NCBI RefSeq assembly: GCF_004786015.1
Contig: NZ_CP032096.1
Location: 868,001 to 932,000 of the forward strand
DNA length: 64,000 nucleotides
Direction: 5' to 3'
Source of the DNA: Hydrogenovibrio crunogenus
GTDB taxonomy: Bacteria; Pseudomonadota; Gammaproteobacteria; Thiomicrospirales; Thiomicrospiraceae
In this document: piece after piece, positions 5,790 to 27,711 of the stretch
Layout: each line of letters begins with the position of its first letter
Numbering within the stretch: the first letter of the stretch is position 1
Translations under genes and position numbers: made by a program
Notes under the pieces: model-generated
Told to the model about the DNA's origin: nothing
What the model saw: the letters and a program-made list of their open reading frames with translations, nothing else
Databases searched by the model: none

Positions 5790-6653
5790 ATGCAAGAATT
5801 TATTAGTCTATACAACGAACATAAATCTGAAATTGAAAAATTTCTGATTGAAACTATTTGTAATAATGCCCAGCTTTTACATTTAGATACCTACCAATTA
5901 CGAAAATTCTATTCAATATTTTCTTGTTTGGAATTGGTTTATACTGCTAATTCCGACTATATTCAAACCTCGCCTAATATTTATAAAAATAAGCTGAATG
6001 AAGCGGCGAAAGGGAAGAACCGTATTTATCTGGTGTCCCAAGTGGCTCGGCAGGAACAGGGGGTGTCGGTGACGCCGCCTTATATCAGCTCTGCCACTGG
6101 TGAATTTTGTGTGACCGTGATGGTGGAAGACAATGGCTCTTTTTTCTTTTTTGATTTTAATGTGGTGTCATTGTTAACTCGACTGGGATTGGTGGAGTTA
6201 CATCCGGTTTTTAATAAAGTGACGAAAAGCTTTTATTTACTCATTGGGCTTTCGTTGATGTTCTTTTCAATTATGTCGATCGGGTATGCGTTTTATGATT
6301 ATTTTATACAGTGGATGCATCCGGCTGACTATACTTTAGAAAGTGTTTTTAAACCTATTGTCGCATTAACGATGGGCTTGGCTATTTTTGATTTATCGAA
6401 AACGCTGCTGGAACGAGAGGTCTTTTTTAAAGCCTACTCGGATAAGAAAGACGAATCTAGACTGCTGTCGAAGTTTTTGATTGCCATCATTATCGCCTTG
6501 TCGATTGAAGCCTTGATGGTGGTGTTCAAGATCGCGTTGAATGACCCGACAATGATGTTACATGCGTTATATTTAATTATTGGAATTGCATTGATTATTT
6601 TGTCTTTGGCACTTTACTCGCGTTGGGTAAAGGTGCCATCAAACACGAAATAA
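5790..6653 (+). CDS. Membrane protein with soluble N-terminal domain, function unknown
   Basis: The protein has 287 residues from ATG 5790, chosen because GGGAGTG lies just upstream; a TTG at 5742 would add 16 residues. The N-terminal 150 residues are soluble and helical. They contain a PPYISSATGEFCVTVMVED segment followed by FFFFDFNV, reminiscent of small sensory (PDC/Cache-like) domains. Four membrane helices follow at about 160-185, 200-220, 240-262 and 267-287. It ends 23 bp before the glucosylglycerate phosphatase gene and may be the first gene of that operon. A link to osmotic or turgor sensing is only a guess from context. Confidence 0.7.
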   Translation: MQEFISLYNEHKSEIEKFLIETICNNAQLLHLDTYQLRKFYSIFSCLELVYTANSDYIQTSPNIYKNKLNEAAKGKNRIYLVSQVARQEQGVSVTPPYISSATGEFCVTVMVEDNGSFFFFDFNVVSLLTRLGLVELHPVFNKVTKSFYLLIGLSLMFFSIMSIGYAFYDYFIQWMHPADYTLESVFKPIVALTMGLAIFDLSKTLLEREVFFKAYSDKKDESRLLSKFLIAIIIALSIEALMVVFKIALNDPTMMLHALYLIIGIALIILSLALYSRWVKVPSNTK

Positions 6654-24834: not shown

Positions 24835-25272
24835 TCAGCTGCTTTGTGAAAGTAAACAATTTTTTAAGCATTGCTGATTCTTAGTGATGTCAGCCAGTGT
24901 GTATTGATCTAAAGTTGCTAAAAAAGCTTCCATCGCCTTGAATAAAGCAGGCTTGAGTAAACAGATTTCTTGAATTTGACATAACGGTTTTTCGCAGTTG
25001 ACAGGATTTAATGTCATTTCAAATTTTCTAACAACTTGACCGACAAGTATTTCTGACGGCGCTTTACATAAAATGATGCCACCGTTTTTGCCTCGAATTG
25101 TCCGGATCATGCCTTCTTTCCCTAACTGGTGGACCACTTTGATTAAATGATTTTTAGGGATATCAAATTTTTCTGAAATCGTTTTGATTTGTATTTTAGT
25201 ATCGGGCTCATCTTGCATTGCCAAGTACATAAGTACTCGTAGTGCGTAGTCGGTATATTTGGTTAATTGCAT
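24835..25272 (-). CDS. nsrR: NsrR-type Rrf2 regulator 1
   Basis: The protein has 145 residues from ATG 25272, which opens with the family start MQLTKYTDYALRVLMYLA. It has a winged helix (ISEKFDIPKNHLIKVVHQL), a wing RGKNGGI, and the iron-sulfur ligands Cys93-x4-Cys98-x5-Cys104, the NsrR spacing. NsrR loses repression when nitric oxide attacks its cluster. It is divergent from a membrane protein gene across an 11-1-11 operator, and a weaker site overlaps its own start, implying autoregulation. A second NsrR lies 2 kb away. Confidence 0.88.
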   Translation of the reverse strand: MQLTKYTDYALRVLMYLAMQDEPDTKIQIKTISEKFDIPKNHLIKVVHQLGKEGMIRTIRGKNGGIILCKAPSEILVGQVVRKFEMTLNPVNCEKPLCQIQEICLLKPALFKAMEAFLATLDQYTLADITKNQQCLKNCLLSQSS

Positions 25273-25273
25273 A

Positions 25274-25296
25274 AAGGTGTATCTTGTATATATCTT
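25274..25296. promoter_or_regulatory. Degenerate NsrR-like operator at the nsrR1 start
   Basis: An 11-1-11 dyad, AAGGTGTATCT-T-GTATATATCTT, resembles the AAGATGYATTT half-site with about three mismatches per arm. It sits just before the nsrR1 start codon, where bound protein would block its own transcription. Confidence 0.4.
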
Positions 25297-25322
25297 TATG
25301 GACATTGAGGTGAAAAATCTTT

Positions 25323-25345
25323 AAGATGTATTTTGATTGCATCTT
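25323..25345. promoter_or_regulatory. NsrR operator between nsrR1 and the membrane protein gene
   Basis: A strong 11-1-11 dyad, AAGATGTATTT-T-GATTGCATCTT, matches the described NsrR half-site consensus (AAGATGCYTTT in enterics). It ends 14 bp before the ATG of the plus-strand membrane protein gene, so binding would directly block that gene's transcription or leader. Confidence 0.8.
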
Positions 25346-25359
25346 AAAGGAGTAGGAGC

Positions 25360-25905
25360 ATGTCCGTTACCCATTTAAATTATAGTCAAAAGAAACTGTC
25401 GAAAACCCCGCATCATATTTTTAATTTAAACATGATTCTTGTGCATTTATTTGCCGTAGTGTTTTTATTTGAATTTCATCTTTATTATTGGTTTTGGATT
25501 ATTCCCATCGTTTCAATCATGATTATGCTATCACAATATGCTTTTTTCAGATCGTTGCTTTCAAGAGAGGAAATCGAACATAAAGCGACTAACCAGTATG
25601 TGCTAGCAAACTGGAGACTTGTTAACCGTCATAATCGCATTATTTTAATGGGGTATGCCATTGGCGGAAGTTTGTTATCAATCGGGTATTTTTTGTCAAA
25701 TAATATGACACCTGATCCCAATATGGGGCAAATTGTTATGACCATTTTTTTGTATTTATCCGGTAATTTAATGCTGTTGATTTTACTGGTGACCTTTGTG
25801 TTGAGTAGTGGTGCTGTTTGGCATGCGAGTAAAGGTGAGATGACACGAGCACTTGAGAAACAGATACAACTTCTTCCAGCTGGAAATGGTCGTTTGTCTA
25901 AATAA
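25360..25905 (+). CDS. Four-helix membrane protein under NsrR operator, function unknown
   Basis: The 181-residue protein has helices at about 24-42, 45-62, 96-115 and 128-152. Hydrophobic segments hold several histidines (HHIFNLNMILVHLF, FEFHLYYWF, NRHNRI), which could bind metal or haem. It has a good ribosome site AAAGGAGTAGGAGC. The NsrR operator next to its start predicts induction by nitric oxide, so a part in NO or nitrosative-stress defence is likely from context. The family was not recognised; it is not NnrS by length. Confidence 0.6.
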   Translation: MSVTHLNYSQKKLSKTPHHIFNLNMILVHLFAVVFLFEFHLYYWFWIIPIVSIMIMLSQYAFFRSLLSREEIEHKATNQYVLANWRLVNRHNRIILMGYAIGGSLLSIGYFLSNNMTPDPNMGQIVMTIFLYLSGNLMLLILLVTFVLSSGAVWHASKGEMTRALEKQIQLLPAGNGRLSK

Positions 25906-25909
25906 GAAC

Positions 25910-25947
25910 TTGCCCCCTGTCTTTTAACAAAGAGAAAGAGGGCAATA
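25910..25947. terminator. Imperfect bidirectional hairpin between convergent genes
   Basis: TTGCCCCCTGTCTTT pairs imperfectly with AAAGAGGGCAA between the ends of the NO-responsive membrane protein gene and hmp. Base pairing is good at the base of the stem, with mismatches in the middle. The position argues for termination in both directions. Confidence 0.45.
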
Positions 25948-25951
25948 AAGG

Positions 25952-27139
25952 TTAACTTAATGTGGTTGTCGGACCAAATATTTCGTAATGTCTTTGTTGT
26001 TCGCTTATTCCAATTTCTGAGCACATCTTGTTTACTGCACTCATAAAAGGTTTCGAGCCGCAAAAATATACATCCGGTTGAGTATTATCCGGTAGCCACT
26101 TTTGTAAAACCTCTTTCGTTAAATAACCTTGATGATCCGCACCAGATTCAACTTCATAGGCAACATAATAATGAAATCCATATCGTTGCTGTAAGTTTGT
26201 TATTGCCTTTTTCATAAGGTGATGTTCACTGTCACGACAGCATTGAATAAAGGTGATTTTGTTCGCGTCCATGGTTTTTAACTGCTGTAAAAGCATACTT
26301 AATAATGGCGTTAATCCAACGCCACCGGCAATAAAGGTGATATGAGAGGAATCAGGAGATTGAATGGTAAAGTCTCCTGTTGGTGGTTGTAACCAAACTG
26401 TATCGCTTACTTTTGCTTTGTGGAGATGGTTTGAGACAGTGCCAGGAAACTCGGAACCATGACCTTCTTGTTTAACCGTGATTCTATAAAAATCTTCTCC
26501 TGGCGCATTAGACAAGGAATATTGTCGAATTTCTTCATAGTCGCTTTTTTCTGGCTTAACCCGAACCCCAACATACTGACCCGCTTCAAAGCTGGCATGT
26601 CGTCCGTCTTCTGCCTTTAAGTAGAAGGATTTAATGCCTTTTGATTCTGTCGTGATTTGATCAATCTTAAATGGTTTGAATCCTCTCCACCCTTGTATTT
26701 TTTGTTCATTTTCAAGGTAGATATCTTCTTCTGTCGCAATGAAAATATCTGCCAGTGCATTGTAAGCGATGCGCCAGGCATCAAGGATGGGGTGCGATTT
26801 CGGGAGTTCAAGGTGTTCTTCTATTGCTTCAAGAAGATATTTTCCAACAATAGGGTAATGTTCAGGTTGAATCGATAAACTGGCATGCTTGTTGGCAATG
26901 CGTTTTACCATGGGGGTGAGTTCCTGTAATTCATCAATTTTACTGGCATACATGAAAACCGATTCTGCTAACGCGCGAGATTGTTCGCCTTGTGCTTGGT
27001 TCGCCATATTAAAAATATTTTGTAATTCCGGGTGATTGAGAAAAAGTTTTTGATAGAAAAGATCGGTAATTTTAAGACCTTGTTCAGCTAAAACTGGAGC
27101 GGTTTCTTTGATCGTTTGTATCACACTGTTTGATAACAT
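25952..27139 (-). CDS. hmp: Flavohaemoglobin, nitric oxide dioxygenase
   Basis: The protein has 395 residues in three domains. A globin (1-140) has the distal region FYQKLFLNHPELQNIFNMANQ and proximal His in IANKHASLSIQPEHYPIVGKYL. The FAD domain (about 150-258) has GQYVGVRV and RQYSLSNAP. The NAD domain (about 262-395) has FIAGGVGLTPLLSML and ends in HYEIFGP. It oxidises NO with O2 and NAD(P)H to nitrate in the cytosol. Two tandem NsrR-type dyads lie just upstream, between hmp and the divergent second nsrR. The start follows AAAGGAATT. Confidence 0.96.
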   Translation of the reverse strand: MLSNSVIQTIKETAPVLAEQGLKITDLFYQKLFLNHPELQNIFNMANQAQGEQSRALAESVFMYASKIDELQELTPMVKRIANKHASLSIQPEHYPIVGKYLLEAIEEHLELPKSHPILDAWRIAYNALADIFIATEEDIYLENEQKIQGWRGFKPFKIDQITTESKGIKSFYLKAEDGRHASFEAGQYVGVRVKPEKSDYEEIRQYSLSNAPGEDFYRITVKQEGHGSEFPGTVSNHLHKAKVSDTVWLQPPTGDFTIQSPDSSHITFIAGGVGLTPLLSMLLQQLKTMDANKITFIQCCRDSEHHLMKKAITNLQQRYGFHYYVAYEVESGADHQGYLTKEVLQKWLPDNTQPDVYFCGSKPFMSAVNKMCSEIGISEQQRHYEIFGPTTTLS

Positions 27140-27178
27140 TTGTATTAAATTCCTTTTTGACTGAAGAGATTGTTCTTA

Positions 27179-27226
27179 AAGATTCATATTAAATGCATCT
27201 TTAAAGATGCATGATATTTGAATGTT
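27179..27226. promoter_or_regulatory. Two tandem NsrR operators between hmp and nsrR2
   Basis: The first is an 11-1-11 dyad at 27179-27201, AAGATTCATAT-T-AAATGCATCTT. A second, weaker one is at 27204-27226, AAGATGCATGA-T-ATTTGAATGTT, two bases later. Both lie in the shared control region of hmp and the second NsrR gene, about 40 bp from the hmp start. Confidence 0.8.
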
Positions 27227-27273
27227 TTAGTGAATGTCAAATATAATGAAGTCTAATTTAGGAGTAGGTGGCA

Positions 27274-27711
27274 ATGCAGTTAACCAAACAAACCGATTTT
27301 GCTTTTCGAGTGCTGATCTATTTGGCTTCAAAAAAAACAGGCGAGTTGTCGAATATTCAGATGATTTCTGAGCGATATGAGATTTCTAAAAGCCATTTGA
27401 TGAAAGTGGTTCAAAAACTGGTCAGCCACGGCTTGGTGACCTCTATCAGAGGGCAGTATGGCGGTATTTTGTTGGAAAAAGAACTGGATGAGATTACCTT
27501 ACGACAGGTAATTGAGTTGATGGAAGCGACGTTAACCCCGGTGAACTGCGATGAACCCGTATGTAAACTTAAAGAGGTTTGCCGGTTAAAGACCTATCTA
27601 ATCCAAGCCCAAAATCAATATCTCACTTATCTGGAGCAGTTCACGCTGGCCGATATTGTCAATGATACAATTCGTCAGGAAATCTTTCCCGATATGATTC
27701 GCCTTAACTGA
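27274..27711 (+). CDS. nsrR: NsrR-type Rrf2 regulator 2
   Basis: The protein has 145 residues from ATG 27274 (GGAG nine bases upstream; the in-frame GTG at 27268 is too close). It begins MQLTKQTDFAFRVLIYLASKKTG, has the recognition region RYEISKSHLMKVVQKLVSHG and cluster ligands Cys92-x4-Cys97-x5-Cys103. It is clearly paralogous to the regulator at 24835-25272, with the same length and domain plan. It is divergent from hmp across tandem operators. Having two NsrR proteins in one NO locus is unusual; they may differ in NO sensitivity or share sites. Confidence 0.9.
   Translation: MQLTKQTDFAFRVLIYLASKKTGELSNIQMISERYEISKSHLMKVVQKLVSHGLVTSIRGQYGGILLEKELDEITLRQVIELMEATLTPVNCDEPVCKLKEVCRLKTYLIQAQNQYLTYLEQFTLADIVNDTIRQEIFPDMIRLN

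Follow-up and report, generated by a model that had tools for sequence, protein, structure and literature searches.

Two adjacent NsrR modules in Hydrogenovibrio crunogenus, probably kept largely apart by one operator position

Two genes for NsrR-type regulators of the Rrf2 family, here called nsrR1 and nsrR2, stand close together in the sulfur-oxidising bacterium Hydrogenovibrio crunogenus, within the 64-kb stretch analysed here (the window, G000:C1:868001-932000 of the closed 2.45-Mb genome, G000; positions below are those of the window unless a contig is given). The gene order is nsrR1 (-), a membrane-protein gene (+), hmp (-) and nsrR2 (+), so that two modules, each made of a regulator and a divergent neighbour, adjoin within 2.9 kb. 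We consider it fairly probable that they are two largely insulated repressor modules, kept apart by position 6 of their operators, and not one shared graded switch. On our best reading, NsrR1 would regulate itself and the membrane protein, and NsrR2 itself, hmp and, in this species, nnrS.

The initial annotation had proposed a pair of NsrR-type regulators, both separated by an 11-1-11 dyad from a divergently transcribed probable target, in a nitric oxide (NO) detoxification setting, and this description was borne out. Both proteins match PF02082 and carry the C-x4-C-x5-C spacing together with Asp8 of the N-terminal TD motif; the three cluster cysteines and this aspartate are invariant in 20/20 aligned NsrRs, the two window proteins included. 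The NCBIfam NsrR model NF008240 is the top model for NsrR1 (138.4 bits) as well as NsrR2 (122.2 bits), both scoring below its curated cut-off of 182 bits and hence not members by that cut-off, which was set for annotation rather than as a criterion of function and is not taken here as defining NsrR. The top Protein Data Bank matches of NsrR1 are NsrR crystal structures (E 1e-18), and the only further Rrf2 protein of the genome is a distant one (29% identity). As to the setting, hmp lies beside nsrR2 with the NsrR1 module adjoining, all three Hmp domains (globin, FAD and NAD) were found by Pfam, and a further dyad is present at nnrS, elsewhere in the genome.

The four dyads of the initial annotation are all present where it had placed them, with the scores listed in Table 1, which refer to the enterobacterial consensus; the consensus in the accessible text of PMC10783083 reads AAGATGTATTT. 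Chance level was set by 200 dinucleotide shuffles, of the 64-kb window only, which gave on average 6.6 sites per shuffled window with a score of at least 15, 1.1 with at least 16, 0.01 with at least 18 and none with at least 19. The dyads at 27179 and 25323 are therefore far beyond chance (0 expected), whereas those at 27204 and 25274 are weak by score alone, the latter, which the initial annotation had also called weak, being no better than chance. We nevertheless accept the two weak dyads because their position and conservation support them: the 25274 dyad recurs at the nsrR1 start codon, 48-49 bp from the second dyad, in all four nsrR1-bearing species (G000, G006, G007 and G012), and in the nsrR2 promoters of family relatives two dyads commonly follow each other at a distance of 25-27 bp. 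When the whole genome was searched with a pattern built from the sites of the locus, these sites matched with 0, 1, 2 and 2 mismatches, and three other sites with 2.

The operators of the two regulators differ at position 6. A scan for AAGAT-xx-AT dyads, blind to positions 6-7 and covering the 350 bp in front of NsrR genes, recovered 14 half-sites for four NsrR1 proteins, with GT (6), AT (5) or GC (3) at these positions and T at position 6 in none (0/14). For the NsrR2 clade (25 NsrRs, 20 with a dyad), the 66 half-sites read TC (37), GC (19) or otherwise (10). Thus, AAGATTCAT is the T half-site of the NsrR2 type, one G-type half is often found in NsrR2 operators, and position 6 is G or A, never T, in NsrR1 operators.

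The two proteins differ in turn at the residue just before the invariant histidine of helix 3 (Asn41 in NsrR1, Ser40 in NsrR2), and we examined this residue in a set of 244 distinct NsrRs from the family, the class, the phylum and named loci, with dyads counted at 12/14 or better. Rows with identical NsrR ends were dropped (253 to 244; 189 to 181 in an earlier set), as were NsrR matches below 90 bits; of the phylum matches, those used were 30 that came as loci (one already included) and 60 more chosen before their residues were seen. Mononucleotide shuffles of the 181-NsrR set provided a null, albeit a weak one. Leaving out NsrRs with another or unread residue or without a dyad at 12/14, 63 proteins could be compared: a T half-site was found for 19/21 of the Ser type vs 5/42 of the Asn type (Fisher p 1.2e-9, not corrected for relatedness). 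Consistently, in a scan of all alignment columns of 56 NsrRs, this residue was the best single predictor of T (Ser, p 2.6e-9, a value inflated by relatedness). On the tree, Ser goes with T in the NsrR2 clade, and this change also arose outside that clade, in Methylobacteriaceae and Endozoicomonadaceae. Within Methylobacteriaceae, where proteins of the Ser and Asn types share 88% identity and their DNA-binding domains differ little, the main upstream dyad is T,T with Ser vs G-type in the Asn relatives.

The same residue is placed at the relevant base pairs in a known structure. NsrR1 Asn41 aligns with Thr41 of Streptomyces coelicolor NsrR (ScNsrR), which shares with the present proteins the Rrf2 fold, the cluster ligands and a 23-bp operator and differs in having Thr instead of Asn or Ser and another operator sequence. 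In the ScNsrR-DNA structure, as described in the accessible part of PMC9338935, Thr41 is in contact with bases +5 and +6 and would clash with a T at the latter position; IscR Ser40 contacts base +5, the comparison made there being with IscR and RsrR. Structure positions +/-6 and +/-5 correspond to operator positions 6 and 7. Val43 of Salmonella NsrR lies in the same recognition helix (PMC10783083, in part). Taken together, we infer that the residue before the histidine most likely sets the base at position 6. More tentatively, it may be a portable specificity switch, Asn going with G (or A) and Ser permitting T, by which bacteria could operate a neighbouring pair of orthogonal NO repressors and transfer individual genes, nnrS for example, between them by changing one base per half-site; we regard this wider proposal as possible but somewhat doubtful.

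The nnrS gene, present in 11/11 genus genomes, lies outside the modules. Its operator is GT,GT, i.e. G-type, in the only genome with NsrR1 alone (G012, 1/1), T-type in the two with NsrR2 alone (G010 and G011, 2/2) and TC,TC in H. crunogenus, which has both; in the genomes without NsrR (G005, G008, G009, G013 and G014), no dyad at 11/14 or better was found upstream of nnrS (5/5). The nnrS operator thus occurs only alongside an NsrR and mostly has the spelling of the resident type. Since the operators differ at position 6 and the nnrS type mostly follows the resident NsrR, these data argue for a partition.

Several observations weigh against a strict rule of this kind. Other alignment columns, R77 among them (p 5.9e-9), predict T nearly as well. 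Only five supported independent pairs were available, in which, on average, the base followed the residue in 2.6, went against it in 0.1 and stayed the same in 2.3, and the phylogenetic pair test is not significant, the switches being so few that a sign test cannot reach 0.05. There are exceptions on both sides: the Ser-type L126 and L423 are without a T half-site and the Asn-type L220, L319, L322, L381 and L405 have one. The blindly chosen phylum set adds little, with T in 2/10 Asn and 1/2 Ser proteins. The nnrS operator of G007, which has two NsrRs, is G-type (GT,GC); in G006, which also has two, the homologous place holds only a mixed and weak site (10/14), and a 12/14 site further up belongs to neither type. 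Finally, a search for G-type sites reaches the 27179 dyad with 1 mismatch, and both hmp dyads hold one G-type half, so that NsrR1 might bind the 27179 dyad through its G half. What the sequences suggest is therefore a residue-to-base code with few independent switches and with exceptions.

These last points are those that favour a shared regulon, in which every dyad would serve both NsrRs and their unequal sensitivity to NO would give the graded or two-threshold response that the initial annotation had derived from the similarity of the operators. The dyad form is indeed shared, AAGAT-xx-AT half-sites being common to all dyads, and the G-type halves at hmp leave room for some cross-regulation. 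However, T half-sites are absent from NsrR1 promoters and found in nearly all Ser-type ones, and nnrS operators mostly track the resident NsrR. Moreover, mixed T/G dyads are equally usual in genomes without NsrR1 (G011, G021 and G057), so that G halves need no NsrR1, and a single NsrR can already give promoter-specific NO thresholds and a graded response, according to the accessible text of PMC4861436. We therefore hold a shared regulon to be rather unlikely; cross-talk is probably at most partial and one-sided, and would most likely involve recognition of G-type halves by NsrR2 or, at the 27179 dyad, of the G half by NsrR1.

The difference between the operators could also be lineage drift without consequence, NsrR1 having been transferred with its own promoter and the sites keeping the spelling of the other lineage. 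That NsrR1 belongs to a separate lineage, that several other protein columns are associated with T almost as strongly and that the pair test is not significant all fit such an account. On the other hand, nnrS, although outside the module, is G-type in the NsrR1-only G012 and in G007 and T-type in the NsrR2-only species and in H. crunogenus, and the associated residue touches this very base pair in ScNsrR (PMC9338935, in part), which makes drift an unlikely explanation. Very unlikely, in our view, is a third possibility, that NsrR1 is of NsrR ancestry and answers another signal, such as iron or redox state, with the NO response confined to the NsrR2 module. Its target is a membrane protein without known function and its score is below the NCBIfam cut-off, but it keeps the three cysteines and the aspartate, scores higher against the NsrR model than NsrR2 does, adjoins hmp with its module in G006 and G007 too, and in G012 goes with an nnrS operator of its own type. 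The idea that mixed T/G dyads are sites for an NsrR1-NsrR2 heterodimer, each subunit reading its own half, was prompted by the one T half and one G half of both hmp dyads and was dropped as highly implausible because such dyads also occur in the NsrR2-only genomes G011, G021 and G057.

In the two-module arrangement that we favour, each NsrR dimer with its iron-sulfur cluster would, in the absence of NO, sit on its own dyads and block the overlapping divergent promoters: NsrR1 would repress nsrR1 and the membrane-protein gene, and NsrR2 would repress nsrR2 and hmp, and nnrS in trans. Ser-type NsrR2 would use AAGATTCAT half-sites while accepting some AAGATGCAT, and Asn-type NsrR1 would use AAGATGYAT or AAGRTATAT and avoid T. 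NO would then damage both clusters and open both modules; cluster, NO sensing and repression are attributed to NsrR1 and NsrR2 by analogy with their family. The 25323 dyad overlaps the -10 element of the promoter-like match of the membrane-protein gene, and the 27204 dyad covers the -10 element of that of hmp and the -35 element of that of nsrR2, such matches being no commoner in the region than in shuffles (8 vs 8.9). In line with such an arrangement, a G-type search of the whole genome with at most 2 mismatches places three of its four sites in this locus (control 0). A wider NsrR1 regulon was considered and dropped, the sole match outside the locus lying inside a lytic-transglycosylase-like open reading frame (ORF).

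The term paralogues in the initial annotation, if it is taken to mean a local duplication, is unlikely to apply. NsrR2 falls within a supported clade of 25 rows (near-identical rows having been dropped) that excludes NsrR1, and a tree forcing the NsrR1 and NsrR2 of the genus into one clade is rejected (p 0.012 in the approximately unbiased test, the hypothesis having been named after the first tree). Recent tandem duplication was discarded on these grounds; the two proteins represent separate lineages, brought together by transfer or of ancient divergence.

Their distribution is patchy. NsrR was found at E 1e-12 or better in 22/62 genomes of the family (a search at the level of the order covered the same genomes, differing only in its stricter threshold), with two NsrRs in four: side by side in G000, G006 and G007 and on two contigs in G038. 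Within the genus, four genomes carry NsrR1 together with the membrane-protein gene (G000, G006, G007 and G012), of which G012 is without NsrR2 and without hmp; in G006 and G007, the NsrR1 module likewise adjoins hmp. In relatives, NsrR2 is divergent from hmp or from nnrS, and in G021 NsrR2 and the membrane-protein gene lie on different contigs, where the membrane-protein gene has a T/G-type dyad of its own. In the class sample, NsrR was found at E 1e-25 in 126/370 genomes, of which 14/126 have two copies; two NsrR copies per genome are thus not rare, although two on one contig within 10 kb occur only in G000 and G398.

The presence of two NsrRs in one genome has been published before. Statements here refer to the accessible parts of the cited texts. 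In Paracoccus denitrificans (nsrR1-hmp and nsrR2-ytfE), each NsrR is predicted to control its own neighbour (PMC5588039), and Methylophaga nitratireducenticrescens also has an nsrR1 and an nsrR2 (PMC11526790); the present case differs in that the modules adjoin within 2.9 kb, and those texts mention no operator difference between the copies. The NsrR-hmp modules of gamma- and betaproteobacteria described by Rodionov et al. 2005 (PMC1274295) share with this locus the Rrf2 repressor beside hmp, the palindromic sites and a regulon that includes nnrS and hmp; residue-base covariation is discussed there with respect to the FNR family instead of NsrR, and genomes with two NsrRs do not figure in it. 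The same source reports Vibrio NorR1 and NorR2, likewise two related NO regulators with consensus sequences distinct enough to separate their targets, although they are of another protein family, the sigma-54-dependent activators. A rule linking Asn or Ser to G or T in the operator was not found in print by a literature search with little coverage of subscription journals. If the code holds, it would allow NsrR operators to be assigned to the right regulator in multi-NsrR genomes such as the 14/126 of the class sample, supply a compact example from nature of how NO sensors, whether duplicated or acquired, avoid cross-talk, and make DNA recognition testable in a simple way through a single residue in a family with few base contacts known.

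Table 1. Genes, dyads and promoter-like matches of the locus (window positions; dyad half-sites given by the bases at positions 6-7, dyad scores out of 22)
Feature	Position	Strand	Description
nsrR1	24835..25272	-	Rrf2/NsrR regulator, Asn41-type recognition helix PKNHLIKVV; PF02082 E 5e-36
weak dyad	25274..25296		AAGGTGTATCTTGTATATATCTT; half-sites GT + AT; 15/22
promoter-like match, membrane-protein gene	25299..25327	+	TGGACA-17-TAAGAT, 9/12, consensus match only
strong dyad, nsrR1/membrane-protein gene	25323..25345		AAGATGTATTTTGATTGCATCTT; half-sites GT + GC; 19/22
membrane protein	25360..25905	+	five predicted helices, about four apparently membrane-spanning
hmp	25952..27139	-	NO-inducible flavohaemoprotein; NF009805 459 bits vs cut-off 432
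strong dyad 1, hmp-nsrR2	27179..27201		AAGATTCATATTAAATGCATCTT; half-sites TC + GC; 20/22
dyad 2, hmp-nsrR2	27204..27226		AAGATGCATGATATTTGAATGTT; half-sites GC + TC; 16/22
promoter-like match, hmp	27240-27211	-	consensus match 11/12
promoter-like match, nsrR2	27218-27247	+	consensus match 10/12
nsrR2	27274..27711	+	Rrf2/NsrR regulator, Ser40-type recognition helix SKSHLMKVV; PF02082 E 5e-36

The gene starts in Table 1 are corrected ones: ATG 25272 replaces the ORF start 25305 for nsrR1, and ATG 27274 replaces GTG 27268 for nsrR2. The 25274 dyad lies one base upstream of the nsrR1 ATG, which leaves no room for a ribosome-binding site, and the dyad ends 0-1 base before this codon in all four species (window 25272-25296; same place in L106, L107 and L108). 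This spacing suggests that the nsrR1 mRNA is leaderless or nearly so. Two of the other sites with 2 mismatches in the whole-genome search can be placed: G000:C1:1249335-1249357 (L130:6336), at the start or just upstream of an Nramp metal-transporter ORF, which may be due to chance, and a site at 2278049.

The membrane protein matched no Pfam or NCBIfam family, and its model (mean pLDDT, the predicted local distance difference test score, of 71, i.e. of moderate quality) gave no structural match at E 0.001 or better. The NsrR-type copy is present in 5/62 family genomes and some relative in 61/62; the diverged copies, about 25-36% identical, include one in the same genome (G000:C1:177670-178158). 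Members are scattered in other gammaproteobacteria, with a match in 23/370 class genomes, the own family included, and an alignment of ten members shows P17, H18, N24, H29, W85 and G159 to be invariant. Both G006 and G007 have another gene for a membrane protein (TM_HPP in G006) after the NsrR-type copy.

Other arrangements of NsrR genes were met in passing. In G038 (Thiomicrorhabdus; C3 and C34; L117 and L118), there are two hmp-nsrR pairs, the helix residue is Asp and the dyads found are G,G. In G020, NsrR2 is split into adjacent ORFs of 78 and 73 aa (L128:7170-7612) beside a 397-aa gene in the nnrS position, and is probably frameshifted or decaying with its dyad kept. A gammaproteobacterial metagenome-assembled genome, BWSM_30, carries a pair of NsrR genes in the same orientation, separated by about 1.7 kb (L146:3989-4429 and 6095-6544). 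Finally, a distance of about 5.5 kb separates two NsrR-like genes in L307 (G398:C5:30000-40000): one encodes a GluHis helix and has copper-oxidase-like and cytochrome-like genes as neighbours, and the other is divergent from an NnrS-like gene (names assigned by eye).

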